DNA of 64,000 nucleotides, from positions 1 through 64,000 of the forward strand of contig JAJPHL010000047.1 of the NCBI GenBank assembly GCA_021325275.1, in the 5' to 3' direction. The notes beneath the pieces were generated by a model. It was not told the DNA's origin. It made no database searches and was given only the letters and a program-made list of their open reading frames with translations. Shown here piece after piece: positions 56,061 through 64,000 of the stretch. A program made the translations under genes and the position numbers. The first letter of the stretch is position 1; every line of letters begins with the position of its first letter. This DNA is from Terriglobia bacterium (GTDB lineage Bacteria; Acidobacteriota; Terriglobia; JAJPHL01).

Positions 56061-56234
56061 TTTGTATCAGGGCACGGCTTCAGCCGTGCCGACCCCAGAC
56101 GTTTGGAAAAAGTGGGCTTTAGCCCCGGCAAACAACGGCTGATCCACAATTTTGCCAAGTGGAAAGCCGCAGGGGCTAAAGCCACAGGAACAATGCCTGC
56201 TGGCGGCACGGCTGAAGCCGTGCCCTGATACAAA
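56061..56234. mobile_element. 174-base REP/MITE-like element with 31-base perfect terminal inverted repeats
   Basis: Left end 56061-56091 and right end 56204-56234 are perfect 31-base inverted repeats; each end contains its own palindrome GGCACGGCTTCAGCCGTGCC. Inside are nested pairs (GTGGGCTTTAGCCCC with GGGGCTAAAGCCAC; GGCAAA with TTTGCC), so the whole element can fold on itself. There is no gene in it. The preceding 11 bases repeat TTGTATCA, as at the element border. Size and structure suit a BIME or a MITE moved in trans. It occupies most of the 434-base space between the propeller gene and rnhA; the rest (55969-56060, 56235-56314) shows nothing. Confidence 0.75.
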
Positions 56235-57784: not shown

Positions 57785-60640
57785 CTAGTGCACAACGATT
57801 GTCACTGTATTACTTGATCGGCCCGCCGACTGAATCACCACAGGCACCGGGCCGGTGATTCCCGACGGAACCGCCACATTTACCTGATCTACTCCAATCC
57901 CCGTGATTCCCGCAAATTGCACCGCCGCCGCCGTGCCGCCGATGGTCGCCGTCACAGCCGAAGCAAGCGGCACCGTTGCCGAAGCCGGCGCCGCGCCGGT
58001 GGTCGCACCCGGTGTGGTGTTGCCCAATCCGTCCGCCGCAATCACCAAAACTTCGCCGGCCGTAGCGGGATTCGCCGCCGTCACTGCCGTGCCGTTCGCG
58101 TGCGTCACCGCGAAAATCCCAGGAGCGGCGGCCGCCATCGCCACGTACGTGCCAGCGGCGCCGTTTGGCGTGGTCACCACGACGTACGCTTGGGAGTTGG
58201 TGCTTTCAAACGGCATTTGGAAATTGATCTGCGTCGGCGACGCGTAGAAGAGCGGCGCTTGCACGCCATTCACCGTGACCGTGGTGAGCAACAAGTTGCC
58301 CGCTACCGGCGATCCCGACGCCGTGCCCGTCGCCAAGTTCGTGCCGTAGATGATCGCGGTGGTTCCCGGAGCCAACACCTGCGAATTGCCGGCGGCGTCC
58401 ACGACGCCGCCCGCGGCAATCGAAGGCCCGGGCGCGCCGGGCGCTTGCAGCGCCACTTGATACGCGCCGCGTCCGTACGTTCCAGCCACCAGCGCGTTCG
58501 ACGGCGGGTCGAGCGCCAGCGACGTGATGAACGTGGTCGGCAAACCGTCGTTGAACGACGTCCAGATGCTCGCGCCATCGGCGTTGCGGAACACGCCCGC
58601 GTCGGTGGCTACGTAGATCGGTCCACGCGGATCGACCACCACCGCGTTCGCCGGCGCGTCGGGCAACTGCAGGTTCGTGCCGATGTTCTGCCACGTGGCG
58701 CCGCCGTCGAGGGTGCGATAAACGTGACCGTTCAGGAATCCCCACGCCGTGAGGTATGCCTTCAGCGGATTCTGCGGATCGAACGCCACGCCGGTAAGAT
58801 AGAGTCCCGACGGCAATCCCGCGCCGGCCGTCCACGCCGTTGCGCCGTCGGCCGAATAGAACACGTTGCCGTACGCCGTCACGCCGATGGTTCGCGGCGA
58901 TCCCGTGGCCACCGCGAGCGCGGTGTAGTAATCGCCTTTGGTGGGGAGTTGCGGGCTCACCGCAGCCCACGAAGCGCCTTGATTCGTCGACCGCCAGATT
59001 TGCGACGAGCCGAACAGCACGTTACCCGCGTTGTTGGGATCGGCCACGAACGGCGCGTAATACTCCAGGCTCGGCGTCGTGGTGGGCGGATTCACCGAAG
59101 ACCAATCGGATCCCGCATCGCTCGACCGGCTGAGCGAAGTTTGAATTTGTCCGGCGTAAAACGTGCTGGGCGTCGCGGGATCGACGAACAGCGATCCCAC
59201 GTATCCACTCAAGAGTTGGCTCCAACCGGCGAACTGTCCGCTGATCGCGGAGACGCCGACGGCCTCGCCGCCCTGGAGGATTTGCGAGCCGCCGGGATAG
59301 ATCGCCACGGCGTTGATCAATGAAATCGGCAGCGAGGCATTCAGATTGAACCAAGTTGCCGCGTTGTCAACCGTGTAATAGAGGCCGCCTTCGGTGCCCA
59401 CCAGGAACGTTCCGCTCTGTCCGGGCAAAAACGCCATCGAGAAAATCGCTTGATGAATCACCGGCTGGCCCTGCGCGTTCTGGGAGAGCGTCTGCCACGT
59501 TTGGCCGCCGTCGTTCGAGCGATAAAGATCCCAGCCGCCCAGGTAAATCACGTTGGACGAAGAGGGATCCATCGCCAAAAGTTGATCGTAGCCGCCGTTG
59601 AAGTATGAGCCGTTGTAGAAAAGTCCCGGAGGAACCGAGAGCGCGCGCCACGTTCCGCCGAAATCGTCGGAGCGATAGACGCCGTTCAGCGTGCCGTTGC
59701 CGTTGGCCATCAGCACCACGACCGCTTGCGAACTGGCCGGCGTTTTCGCGATAGAAATGCGCCCAATAGCATTGCCCGATGGCAGCGCGGTGAGCAGCGT
59801 CCAGGTATTTCCTCCGTCGAGCGAGCGATAGACGCCGTTGGTCGCGGCGCCCGAAGGATTGTAGAGCGTGGCGAACGCCAAGTTCGGCGTGTTGGCGTCG
59901 ATCGCCACATCGGTGATGCTGCCGGATGCATTTGAGTTGAGCGTGCGCGTCCACGTGTTGCCGCCGTCGTTGGTGATCCAAATGCCGGAGTCGCGCGCCA
60001 CCAGCAGCGTTTGCGCCGCCGTGGGATGCAGCGCGATGCGATACGTGAATCCGCCCGAGAAATTCGCGCCCATCTGGCGCCAGGTGATTCCCGCGTCGGT
60101 GGACTTGAAGACGCCCGCGCCGTAAGCGATGCCTGAAAACGCGTCGCCGGTGCCGTAGTACAGCGTGTTATTGCGTCCGTCGAAAACCAGCGCGCCGCTC
60201 GACATCGAGGACATTGCGTTCTGCGTCGGCTGCCAGAATCCGCCGTAATTGTCCGAGCGCCACACGCCGCCACCGGCGGGAGCCATGTAGATGCGTCCCG
60301 GATTGTTGGGGTCGGCGGTGATCGCGTTGACGCGTCCGCTTTGCGCGCCCGCGGTCAGCGACGTGATTCCCAGCGGCCCCAAGGGGAGCCAAGTGGCGGG
60401 CGGCGTTGGCTGCGCAAGTCCCGCGGCGTTCAGCGTGACGTCGTTGGTATGCCGCGGTTCCAGCTTCTTGCGCGCGGCGAGCGCGGTGGCCAAGTCGTCG
60501 GCGGGAGAGGTCGAGGGGTTGGTTCGGGCTTGTTGTTGGGTTGCGCGCGAGGGTGCCGGGGCCGTTTGCGAAACGGCGAGGGTCGCGGCGAGTGCAGCCG
60601 CTGCTAAAGTTCCGGCGACAGAAAAAAAGGCGCGCTTCAC
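57785..60640 (-). CDS. Secreted BNR/Vps10-type propeller with TIGR03437 (Solibacter) C-terminal domain
   Basis: 951 residues. Signal peptide MKRAFFSVAGTLAAAALAATLAVSQ, then ~10 BNR/sortilin-like repeats with SxDxGxTW (KSTDAGITWRQM, ITNDGGNTWTRT, RSLDGGNTWTLL, RSDDFGGTWRAL, RSNDGGQTWQTL, RTLDGGATWQNI) forming one or more beta-propellers. From residue ~740 a C-terminal TIGR03437-type domain: GVVDAAGNSQVLAPGTTAIIYGTNL, VTVNGVQAPLFYASPTQINFQMPFE, IFAVTHANGTAV. This domain family is characteristic of Solibacter. The repeats could bind glycans, but this is not shown. Confidence 0.9.
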   Translation of the reverse strand: MKRAFFSVAGTLAAAALAATLAVSQTAPAPSRATQQQARTNPSTSPADDLATALAARKKLEPRHTNDVTLNAAGLAQPTPPATWLPLGPLGITSLTAGAQSGRVNAITADPNNPGRIYMAPAGGGVWRSDNYGGFWQPTQNAMSSMSSGALVFDGRNNTLYYGTGDAFSGIAYGAGVFKSTDAGITWRQMGANFSGGFTYRIALHPTAAQTLLVARDSGIWITNDGGNTWTRTLNSNASGSITDVAIDANTPNLAFATLYNPSGAATNGVYRSLDGGNTWTLLTALPSGNAIGRISIAKTPASSQAVVVLMANGNGTLNGVYRSDDFGGTWRALSVPPGLFYNGSYFNGGYDQLLAMDPSSSNVIYLGGWDLYRSNDGGQTWQTLSQNAQGQPVIHQAIFSMAFLPGQSGTFLVGTEGGLYYTVDNAATWFNLNASLPISLINAVAIYPGGSQILQGGEAVGVSAISGQFAGWSQLLSGYVGSLFVDPATPSTFYAGQIQTSLSRSSDAGSDWSSVNPPTTTPSLEYYAPFVADPNNAGNVLFGSSQIWRSTNQGASWAAVSPQLPTKGDYYTALAVATGSPRTIGVTAYGNVFYSADGATAWTAGAGLPSGLYLTGVAFDPQNPLKAYLTAWGFLNGHVYRTLDGGATWQNIGTNLQLPDAPANAVVVDPRGPIYVATDAGVFRNADGASIWTSFNDGLPTTFITSLALDPPSNALVAGTYGRGAYQVALQAPGAPGPSIAAGGVVDAAGNSQVLAPGTTAIIYGTNLATGTASGSPVAGNLLLTTVTVNGVQAPLFYASPTQINFQMPFESTNSQAYVVVTTPNGAAGTYVAMAAAAPGIFAVTHANGTAVTAANPATAGEVLVIAADGLGNTTPGATTGAAPASATVPLASAVTATIGGTAAAVQFAGITGIGVDQVNVAVPSGITGPVPVVIQSAGRSSNTVTIVVH

Positions 60641-60881: not shown

Positions 60882-61169
60882 ATGACGCTAGACGCCTTTC
60901 GCGCATCCCTCGCCCACCCCTCGCCGCCCGCAGGCCTGAGCTTGGCGCTCCAAGGCCTCTGGTGGGATGCCAAGGGCGATTGGACGAAGGCGCACGAGTC
61001 CGCGCAGCAGGACGAGGGTCGCGACGGCTCGTGGGTCCACGCGTACTTGCATCGCAAGGAAGGCGACGCGTCGAATGCGGGCTACTGGTATCGCCGCGCG
61101 GCCAAGCCGCACTCGCGTTTGCCGCTTGAAGACGAATGGACGGAGATTGCCGGTGCGCTGTTGGGGTAG
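60882..61169 (+). CDS. Small TPR-like protein of unknown function
   Basis: 95 residues. Begins MTLDAFRASLAHPSPPAGLSLALQGLWWDAKGDWTKAH (here in two parts: LALQGLWWDAKGDW and AHESAQQDEG) and contains WVHAYLHRKEGDASNAGYWYRRA, a helix-turn-helix pair like a TPR/Sel1 half-repeat. Homologous small proteins are widespread in bacteria without a known role. It lies 1 base before the pectinase start, so they share a transcript, probably by chance. Confidence 0.7.
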   Translation: MTLDAFRASLAHPSPPAGLSLALQGLWWDAKGDWTKAHESAQQDEGRDGSWVHAYLHRKEGDASNAGYWYRRAAKPHSRLPLEDEWTEIAGALLG

Positions 61170-61170
61170 C

Positions 61171-64000
61171 ATGGGGATGATGAAAGCGGCCGCCCTTCTC
61201 TTGTTGCTCCCATTGGCGCACGCGGCGTCTGGAAACGGTTCCGTCGTTTCCAAAGACGGTTCCGGCGACTTCCGCACGGTGCAGGAAGCGGTCAACGCCG
61301 CGCCGTCGCACTCGCACACGCGCTTCACGATTCACGTGAAGCCCGGCAAGTACGACGAAATCGTCGTGATTCCCTCGGAAAAAACTTGGCTAGCACTTGT
61401 CGGTGACGACGCGATGTCGACGATCATCACCGGCAACCGCCATACCGGCATGCCGCTTCCGCCAGGCGTGTCGCCCGGCGGCCGCGCGACTATGATCACG
61501 TTCGATACGCCGACCGTTTTCGTGCAAGCCACCGATTTCCTCGCCGAAAACATCACGTTTGAGAATTCCGCCGGCAATGTCGGGCAAGCGGTCGCGCTCA
61601 CGATCATGGCCGATCGCGGTGTCTTCCGGAACTGCCGGTTCCTCGGCTATCAGGACACGCTGCTTGCGCAAGCCGGGCGGCAATACTTCGATCACTGCTA
61701 CATCGAAGGCGCGACGGATTTCATTTTCGGCGGATCGCGCGCGTTCTTCGATCACTGTCACATCCACGCGACGGCCAACGGTTATCTCACGGGCGCGAAT
61801 ACGACCAAGGATCAGCCGATCGGCTACGTTTTTTCCGAATGCCAAGTCACCGGCGCGCCAGGGGTACAAACTTTTCTCGGGCGGCCGTGGCGTCCGTGGG
61901 CTGCGGCGGCCTTTTTGAACACGGAAATGTCGGACGTGGTGCGTCCGGCGGGTTGGAACAGTTCGAACGATCCGGCGCGCGAGAAGACCGTGCGCTACGC
62001 CGAGTTCGGGAGTCGCGGAGTAGGCGGGGAAATGAAAGATCGCGTGGCATGGGCGCGACGCCTCACCGCCGCCGAGGCCGCGGATTACTCGATGGAAAAA
62101 GTGCTTGCCGGCGACGATGGATGGGATCCGCGGACTGGCACTGTGAAGACCCGCGTCCGCGTGATTCGCGCGACGGGCGTGCGGAAACCCGTTTTGCCCG
62201 CGGGACAAATGCTCGTCGCTATTGTCAACCGCGGCGAATCGAACGCCACCCTGCGCTTGGCCTACAGCGAGAACGGCGTAGTGTGGGAGGCGATTCGCGC
62301 TCCGATCGCTTGGATGCCCACTGGAAAGCACGTCCGTGATGCGAGATTCCTCCGCGGCCCCGACGACGTCTTTCACGTCGTGTGGGCGGGCGATCCGGGC
62401 GAGGGTATCGTGTACTCGAGCACGTCCGACTTTGTGGAAAAGAAGGACTCGCGGTTTTTTGAGGCAATGGTCGGGCAAAATGCGCTCAATATCGCATCGC
62501 CGAACATTTTTTACGACGAAGCGTCAATGGAATTCGTGATCACGTGGTCGTCGACGCTCGCGAAGAACGCGATCCAGGCGTTTCAAGAGGAAGTGGGAAC
62601 GAATCCGCGCATCTGGTACGCAACGACGCGCGATTTCAAAAAGCTTTCGCCGCCCGCCTTGTTATTCGACAATAATTACGCCACTCGCGATGCCGTGATT
62701 CTGCGCGACGGTGCACGATTCGCCTTGCTGCACTCCGATAGCACGTTTCCCGTGCACAGTTTGCGCGTGGCTTTCTCCAGAAATGTAGGGGGCCCGTGGG
62801 GAGCATCGTCCGACGCCTTCGCGGATAGATTCACGGAATCCCCCGCGGCGGTGCGTGTCGGTGATGCCTGGTGGATTTACGGCTTCAACTCGGAAACCGG
62901 CGCTTCCAATCTGTGGACCACTCGCGATTTCCGCACGTTCACCGAAACTTCGGGCGTGCAGATGCCCAAGGACTATCACCTAACCAGTGTCATGATGCTG
63001 CCCAAGAGCGTTGTTGAATCCCTCCGCGCCGCGCTAAAGCTGGGCGAGCCGTACAACCCGCCGGTGGAACCGACGTGGCACATGCTCGAACGGCCGATCA
63101 AAATCGCGTTGGCCGGCGACTCCACCGTGAACGACGAAGGCGGCTGGGGAATCGGCTTCCGCGCGTCATTTGGACAGCCGGTGAAGGTCGTGAATCTCGC
63201 CCGCAATGGACGCTCGACGAAAAGCTTCCGCGACGAAGGATCATGGAATAAAGTGCTCGCTGAGCACGCCGACTATGTGCTGATCCAATTCGGCCACAAT
63301 GACGTTCCCGGCAAAGGCGCCGACCGTGAGACGGACGCCGCCACAACGTATCGCGAAAATCTTTCGCGCTTCGTCGACGAAGTTCGCGCCTATGGGGGCA
63401 AGCCGGTGCTCGTGACGTCGATTGTCCGCCGCAATTTCGACGAACACGGCAGGATCAAAGCGGATTCGCTCGTGCCTTACGTCGAAGCGGCGCGCGAGGT
63501 CGCGCGAGAAAAGCAAGTTCTGCTAATCGATTTGTACGAACAAACCAAAGCGCAAGCCGAAGCGCGCGGTGTCGCAGGCAGCGAGGCTTTGGGTCGAAGA
63601 GACGCGCAGGGCAAACTCGACACAACCCATCTCGGCCCGATCGCACAAAAGGAAATCGGCGTGATGGCCGCGAAAAGTTTGGTTTCCGCCGTGCCGGAGC
63701 TGGCGCCGTATTTACACGAGCTGATCCTGTGGCGCGACGCGATGCACCAATCGTCCTCTTGGTACGAAAGCGCGGAGGCGATGCGTGTGGCCGATAATTT
63801 ACTCCTCTATCAGCACGACAACGGCGGATGGGACAAGAACATCGATATGGCCGCGCCGCTTGGTCCTGTGGAATTGGCCGGGCTCGAGAAAGAGAAACAC
63901 ACCAGCACCGGCCACACCACCATGGACAACGACGCCACGTGGACGCAAACGCAATTCCTGGCGCGCGTCGTCCCGTTTGCGAAAGGGCAGCGCGCCGAGA
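61171..64000 (+). CDS. Multimodular secreted pectin-degrading enzyme (CE8 / GH43-like / CE12 / PL10), C-terminus beyond window
   Basis: Open frame to the window edge (943 codons). Signal peptide (MMKAAALLLLLPLAHAA). Residues 20-330 are a CE8 pectinesterase: GYQDTL at 159-164, DFIFGG 183-188, LGRPWRPW 236-243, containing the two catalytic Asp and Arg. Residues ~330-640 look like a five-bladed propeller of GH43/62 type (VNRGESNATLRLAYS, VVWAGDPGEGIVYSSTSDF, WYATTRDFKKL). Residues ~645-850 are an SGNH/CE12 rhamnogalacturonan acetylesterase: LAGDSTVND (Ser651), FGHND (His709, Asn710), DTTH (Asp817, His820). From ~860 a PL10 pectate lyase begins (WYESAEAMRVADNLLLYQHD, GGWDKNID, MDNDATWTQTQFLARV). 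Together it would remove methyl and acetyl groups and cut the backbone. Module names are from motifs only. Confidence 0.85.
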   Translation, partial: MGMMKAAALLLLLPLAHAASGNGSVVSKDGSGDFRTVQEAVNAAPSHSHTRFTIHVKPGKYDEIVVIPSEKTWLALVGDDAMSTIITGNRHTGMPLPPGVSPGGRATMITFDTPTVFVQATDFLAENITFENSAGNVGQAVALTIMADRGVFRNCRFLGYQDTLLAQAGRQYFDHCYIEGATDFIFGGSRAFFDHCHIHATANGYLTGANTTKDQPIGYVFSECQVTGAPGVQTFLGRPWRPWAAAAFLNTEMSDVVRPAGWNSSNDPAREKTVRYAEFGSRGVGGEMKDRVAWARRLTAAEAADYSMEKVLAGDDGWDPRTGTVKTRVRVIRATGVRKPVLPAGQMLVAIVNRGESNATLRLAYSENGVVWEAIRAPIAWMPTGKHVRDARFLRGPDDVFHVVWAGDPGEGIVYSSTSDFVEKKDSRFFEAMVGQNALNIASPNIFYDEASMEFVITWSSTLAKNAIQAFQEEVGTNPRIWYATTRDFKKLSPPALLFDNNYATRDAVILRDGARFALLHSDSTFPVHSLRVAFSRNVGGPWGASSDAFADRFTESPAAVRVGDAWWIYGFNSETGASNLWTTRDFRTFTETSGVQMPKDYHLTSVMMLPKSVVESLRAALKLGEPYNPPVEPTWHMLERPIKIALAGDSTVNDEGGWGIGFRASFGQPVKVVNLARNGRSTKSFRDEGSWNKVLAEHADYVLIQFGHNDVPGKGADRETDAATTYRENLSRFVDEVRAYGGKPVLVTSIVRRNFDEHGRIKADSLVPYVEAAREVAREKQVLLIDLYEQTKAQAEARGVAGSEALGRRDAQGKLDTTHLGPIAQKEIGVMAAKSLVSAVPELAPYLHELILWRDAMHQSSSWYESAEAMRVADNLLLYQHDNGGWDKNIDMAAPLGPVELAGLEKEKHTSTGHTTMDNDATWTQTQFLARVVPFAKGQRAE

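Follow-up and report, generated by a model that had tools for sequence, protein, structure and literature searches.

A predicted secreted pectinase of four fused modules in a soil-type acidobacterium

The DNA analysed here, a stretch of 64,000 nucleotides from a Terriglobia bacterium (the window), ends inside a reading frame that resembles several pectin-degrading enzymes in succession. This poses the question whether one secreted molecule could remove both ester decorations of pectin and cleave its backbone, as the initial annotation had claimed, and from which simpler enzymes such a chain may have arisen.

Reading frame, modules and genomic setting

The contig of the window's genome (C36, 98,894 bases) continues past position 64000, and so does the frame, which is still open there. 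It starts at the ATG at 61171 with ATGGGGATGATGAAAGCG..., runs on the plus strand without internal stops to a TAG ending at 64752 (L003:3172-6753) and encodes a product of 1193 aa (P0001). Followed along the contig beyond the window, the frame stays the same. The expectation that more modules may follow did not hold, as PL10 ends at residue 1176 of the 1193. A further module behind it is ruled out by the stop codon at 64750-64752, position 64000 being only the edge of the window. The features are as follows.

60882..61169, plus strand: 95-aa ORF, ending 1 base before the enzyme ATG (from the sequence)
61171..61224, plus strand: Sec-type signal peptide MGMMKAAALLLLLPLAHA, residues 1-18 (translation read by eye)
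61243..62115, plus strand: CE8 pectin methylesterase module, residues 25-315 (PF01095, 233 bits, E 4e-69)
62221..63045, plus strand: strongly diverged GH43-like propeller, approximately residues 351-625 (by homology to relatives, not Pfam)
63097..63720, plus strand: SGNH/GDSL esterase module of CE12 type, approximately residues 643-850 (PF13472, E 1.6e-14)
63811..64698 (in the window to 64000), plus strand: PL10 pectate lyase module, residues 881-1176 (PF09492, 341 bits, E 9e-102)

The module order of CE8, propeller, GDSL/CE12-like esterase and PL10 follows from profile, structure and homology matches, and linkers of ∼20-30 residues lie between the modules. Read by eye, the signal peptide has a short charged start, a hydrophobic core and an A-H-A end, and lacks a lipobox cysteine. 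Third-position GC is 0.60-0.82 per 60 codons along the chain, linkers included, and 0.70-0.77 in each of the four modules. Since it stays steady and high across modules and linkers alike, the chain reads as one coding gene, and neither a shift of frame nor inserted foreign DNA is indicated. Neither stops nor frameshifts separate the modules between 61171 and 64752, and composition is even over the junctions. The open frame, signal peptide, profiles and homology bear out the claim of four pectin-related modules in one exported chain. Pfam assigns the CE8, GDSL/CE12-like and PL10 modules; the propeller has no Pfam match and is GH43-like by homology to relatives. NCBIfam profiles agree with Pfam on the lyase and match the esterase modules partially, while structures of pectin methylesterase (PME), rhamnogalacturonan acetylesterase and PL10 lyases align to the same parts of the chain as the Pfam modules.

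The 95-aa ORF matches no Pfam family. Relatives with up to 67% identity occur in 28 of the 101 genomes sampled from the class, so we take it as a real gene, probably co-translated with the enzyme in the same operon; any link to pectin is conjectural. A pectin utilisation locus was looked for around the enzyme gene and none was found, the neighbours being a sortilin/BNR-type protein, FecR and a class V aminotransferase. The first of these (57785-60640, minus strand) is an exported-looking sortilin/BNR-repeat protein of 951 aa beside the FecR-domain protein, and no pectin link was seen for it. Elsewhere, the genome holds four matches to GH28 and two weak matches of GH88 type. A second pectin locus on contig C72 (L004:302-10541) carries a CE8 gene followed by a GH28 polygalacturonase, near an apparent GH2 enzyme and an apparent esterase. 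On contig C15, a 658-aa frame (L007:667-2640) contains two tandem GDSL/CE12-type esterase modules.

The enzyme gene is flanked by two copies of a dispersed element of ∼170 bp with inverted arms (TTTGTATCAGGGCACGGCT...), at 56061-56234 and, on the contig, at 64946-65119 (L003:6947-7147). The arms have 85 matches in the genome, several near contig ends, against 0 for a reversed control, and as single-stranded DNA the copy in the window has an extremely strong fold (z -12.6). A search of Rfam gave no match to the repeat, which looks like a REPIN/MITE-type element.

Predicted activities of the modules

The Pectinesterase profile (PF01095) is matched from position 3 to 298 of 298, that is over the whole domain, and the CE8 module also matches the carrot PME structure 1gq8 (E 4e-46). 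In the alignment to 1gq8, residues Q139, Q161, D162, D183, R238 and W240 coincide with the PME active site, where we assign the roles of the two catalytic aspartates, the arginine and the oxyanion glutamines from established template knowledge. At the other end of the chain, the match to PF09492 (Pec_lyase) covers 1-291 of 292 positions, and the NCBI equivalog TIGR02474 scores 327 bits, above its cut-off of 190. The PL10 module matches the pectate lyase structures 1r76 and 1gxm; D919, D984, R1055 and R1147 correspond to D389, D451, R524 and R610 of Pel10A in the alignment to 1gxm. Here, the catalytic arginine and the calcium- and substrate-binding aspartates are presumably those established for the PL10 template.

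The Lipase_GDSL_2 match (PF13472) spans residues 654-796, and the surrounding module matches rhamnogalacturonan acetylesterase 1deo (E 3e-6). S651, G680 and N710 align with the serine and oxyanion residues of 1deo, whose catalytic roles we take from established template knowledge. The module also contains a DTTH motif (D817-x-x-H820), which lies beyond the end of the structural alignment to 1deo. GDSL esterases vary in their substrates. By homology, the second esterase is of CE12 type and a putative acetylesterase. As the aligned catalytic residues are kept in CE8, CE12 and PL10, these three modules are probably active.

The propeller is a different case. Profile search of the 1193-aa protein gave no Pfam match in this region, the GH43 family profile PF04616 included, and a weak NCBIfam match to GH43 arabinofuranosidase. 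Its closest profiles are the alpha-arabinofuranosidase and BT_3657-like arabinosidase families. It is 29-34% identical, and 34% at most, to stand-alone secreted proteins and PL10-fused propellers of the phylum; the PL10-fused relatives pass the cut-offs of GH43 (PF04616) and BT_3657-like arabinosidase (PF22847). This homology to secreted GH43-like propellers upholds the naming of the second module as GH43-like; a direct Pfam GH43 match is missing, and we do not count the module as a working enzyme.

An alignment of 19 sequences shows three invariant carboxylates (D77, D194 and E243 in P0002 numbering), which we presume from family knowledge to occupy the GH43 base, pKa modulator and acid positions. 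Yet 21 of 44 family-conserved columns (those at least 90% conserved among the other sequences of the alignment) are altered in the propeller, against 0-3 in relatives, one truncated row excepted. The changes include the W of WAPE, the K of KDET, the D of YYDxYR and the G of EGP. With so many conserved columns changed although the carboxylates are kept, the propeller is probably altered, that is re-specialised, or non-catalytic. An AlphaFold2 model built from two sequences is all-beta and poor (mean pLDDT 45); its best fold matches are GH32/GH43 propellers and also sialidases, and at this model quality they lend weak support only.

Partial fusions in relatives and the closest known systems

The full chain appears to be rare, its parts do not. 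Among ∼800 sampled Acidobacteriota genomes (399 genomes of the class and 20 relatives in single-protein searches, 396 of the phylum in domain searches), the four-module chain was found only in the window's genome. A scan of an 84,980-species genome collection with two PL10 patterns, which requires an exact pattern match in PL10 and through which alone Bacteroidota and Verrucomicrobiota were covered, returned 330 relatives, and none of the best 80 carries the four-module chain. In the literature, we found pairwise fusions of these pectin modules and not the full chain. The assertion that such modules are usually separate genes therefore needs qualification: two-module fusions are frequent in Acidobacteriota and Opitutae and have been published, while the full chain was found in no other genome searched here.

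Nearest to the chain are the CE12-PL10 enzymes of Candidatus Solibacter and Bryobacterales, which share both modules, their order, a short linker and export, and differ in that the signal peptide leads directly into CE12, with neither CE8 nor propeller. Such fusions (L068-L071, L074, L075, L092 and L148-L150, some of them the same record; 58-66% identity) are present in eight or more related genomes, which belong mainly to Solibacter or Acidobacteriia, and most show this identity. Those inspected have their own signal peptide and are stand-alone, secreted enzymes; in L072, an Fn3-like stretch precedes CE12-PL10. A Thermoanaerobaculia protein of ∼1000 aa (L061, identical to L073) is the one case found with CE8-like, Fn3-like, CE12 and PL10 parts in this order in one polypeptide. 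It resembles our chain in having a CE8-type module first and CE12 and PL10 last. It differs in its divergent CE8 without the usual QDT motif, in the Fn3-like stretch that takes the place of the propeller and in an overall identity of 42%.

Other pairings recur. CE8-PL10 fusions of Pyrinomonadaceae/Blastocatellia (e.g. L062, L063, L103, L115, L126, L133, L141 and L145) share the methylesterase and PL10 with the chain and lack acetylesterase and propeller. PL10-CE8 fusions are reported from Ruminococcus albus, alongside CE8-PL1 in ruminococci, with dockerin or CBM (PMC4081043), and from Maribacter (PMC8072126); these have the same two activities in reversed order as written, again without acetylesterase or propeller. 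In L065 (G291) and L083, a propeller of the same GH43-like family is joined to PL10 as in the chain, but with its motifs kept and without esterases. CE12 is fused to CE8 in L164 and, judged from coordinates, in G533 and G500, as in Bacteroides xylanisolvens (PMC4769552), and CE8 to CE12 in the Opitutae L080, L093 and L120, with PL10 adjoining. L086 carries CE8 (with an esterase), GH28-CE12 and PL10 as three tandem unfused genes in the order of the chain. PmeC5 of Butyrivibrio fibrisolvens, likewise large and secreted, combines CE8 with a pectate lyase module, in this case PL9; it has adhesin and cell-wall-binding domains and lacks CE12 and PL10 (PMC12109409).

At two of the Opitutae loci (L080:6960-7060 and L093:6975-7080), PL10 and CE8-CE12 are encoded by adjoining genes that share a reading frame. 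The PL10 gene of L080 ends with a stop that overlaps or directly adjoins the following ATG, and in L093 a single stop codon lies between the frames; a PL10-CE8-CE12 chain would be just one step away. Another large pectin-related fusion is a 1114-aa frame (L163:5362-8703) in which PL10 is followed by acetyl-xylan-esterase-like and peptidase/esterase-like matches.

Proposed function, origin and alternative readings

We consider an exported multi-activity pectinase, consisting of a CE12-PL10 core and a gained CE8 and propeller, to be the best explanation (probability about 0.78), and the chain probably works as a single secreted pectinase with three or more predicted activities. After secretion via the Sec route, CE8 would strip methyl esters from homogalacturonan by a two-aspartate mechanism, and the CE12 serine esterase would take off acetyl groups. 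PL10 would then beta-eliminate the exposed polygalacturonate with its catalytic arginine and calcium. PL10 enzymes act on unesterified polygalacturonate, so a molecule that also carries a demethylase and a deacetylase would prepare this substrate on the spot. The resulting oligogalacturonides could be completed by the GH28 and weak GH88-type enzymes of the genome. The activities, the cooperation of the modules and the role of the propeller are what we infer here. Of the original proposal that one molecule de-methylates, deacetylates and cleaves pectin, the module identities, their order, export and the proposed role in pectin degradation are supported, and the propeller is left out of the count of enzymes.

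Because eight or more related genomes encode CE12-PL10 as a stand-alone, secreted two-module enzyme, we regard it as the conserved core. Its modules have close relatives, mostly already fused (58-70% identity for CE12 to the modules of CE12-PL10 enzymes, ∼58-64% for PL10), whereas CE8 (at most 52% identity) and the propeller have distant ones only, which suggests that CE8 and propeller joined at the N-terminus. The likeliest history, in which we infer the order of events, is that genes for CE8 and a propeller were added at the N-terminus of a secreted CE12-PL10 ancestor from the Solibacter/Bryobacterales group, which lost its inner signal peptide.

That the same module families are fused pairwise or adjacent in relatives speaks for the multi-activity pectinase. 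Against it stand the position of the gene apart from other pectin genes, the many conserved residues lost from the propeller, the assignment of CE12 by homology and the occurrence of the complete chain in a single genome. This uniqueness among the sampled genomes, together with the dispersed repeat that lies on either side of the region, could also point to an assembly or gene chimera that is not one gene in the organism. We judge this very improbable: both repeats lie outside the gene, the frame is unbroken, composition and codon-position bias are even over all junctions and every partner family fuses in relatives. Another reading, in which the whole chain is exported and then cut at its linkers into separate enzymes, so that fusion serves co-expression and not cooperation, draws on the length of the linkers and on the same genes being adjacent operon members elsewhere. 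It is unlikely, as no protease site was recognised by eye and an inner signal peptide before CE12 is absent.

Within the multi-activity pectinase, the propeller between the two esterases may be a spacer, a sugar-binding module or an altered side-chain-cutting one; the estimates for these sub-readings do not add to that for the whole. The odds lean slightly towards a three-activity enzyme whose GH43-like module only spaces the chain or binds pectin. The extent of its altered columns and the short Fn3-like stretch (by eye) ahead of CE12 in L061 and L072 favour this, but a fully dead module need not retain all three catalytic carboxylates. The same triad, the arabinosidase-type profiles and the propeller-PL10 fusions with intact motifs speak instead for an active glycosidase of shifted specificity that trims arabinose or galactose side chains of rhamnogalacturonan. 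Such a four-activity enzyme is conceivable although doubtful, given the heavy loss of signature residues and the absent Pfam GH43 match. Tentatively, a former side-chain glycosidase may have lost its catalysis or been re-specialised and may now bind pectin or act as a spacer, linking two esterases and a lyase in one pectin-stripping molecule, a combination not found elsewhere in our search.

Taken together, what stands out is the predicted union of three activities and a propeller in one chain, which extends the well-known habit of fusing pectin modules and is not a new kind of system. It shows the reach of fusion among adjacent pectin genes in Acidobacteriota, an understudied soil phylum, where a single secreted chain is predicted to act on both ester decorations and on the backbone. 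How such enzymes are assembled can be tested on the series of partial fusions that relatives carry, and the chain may offer a natural template for de-esterifying and cleaving highly esterified, acetylated pectin, such as that of sugar beet, in one pot.
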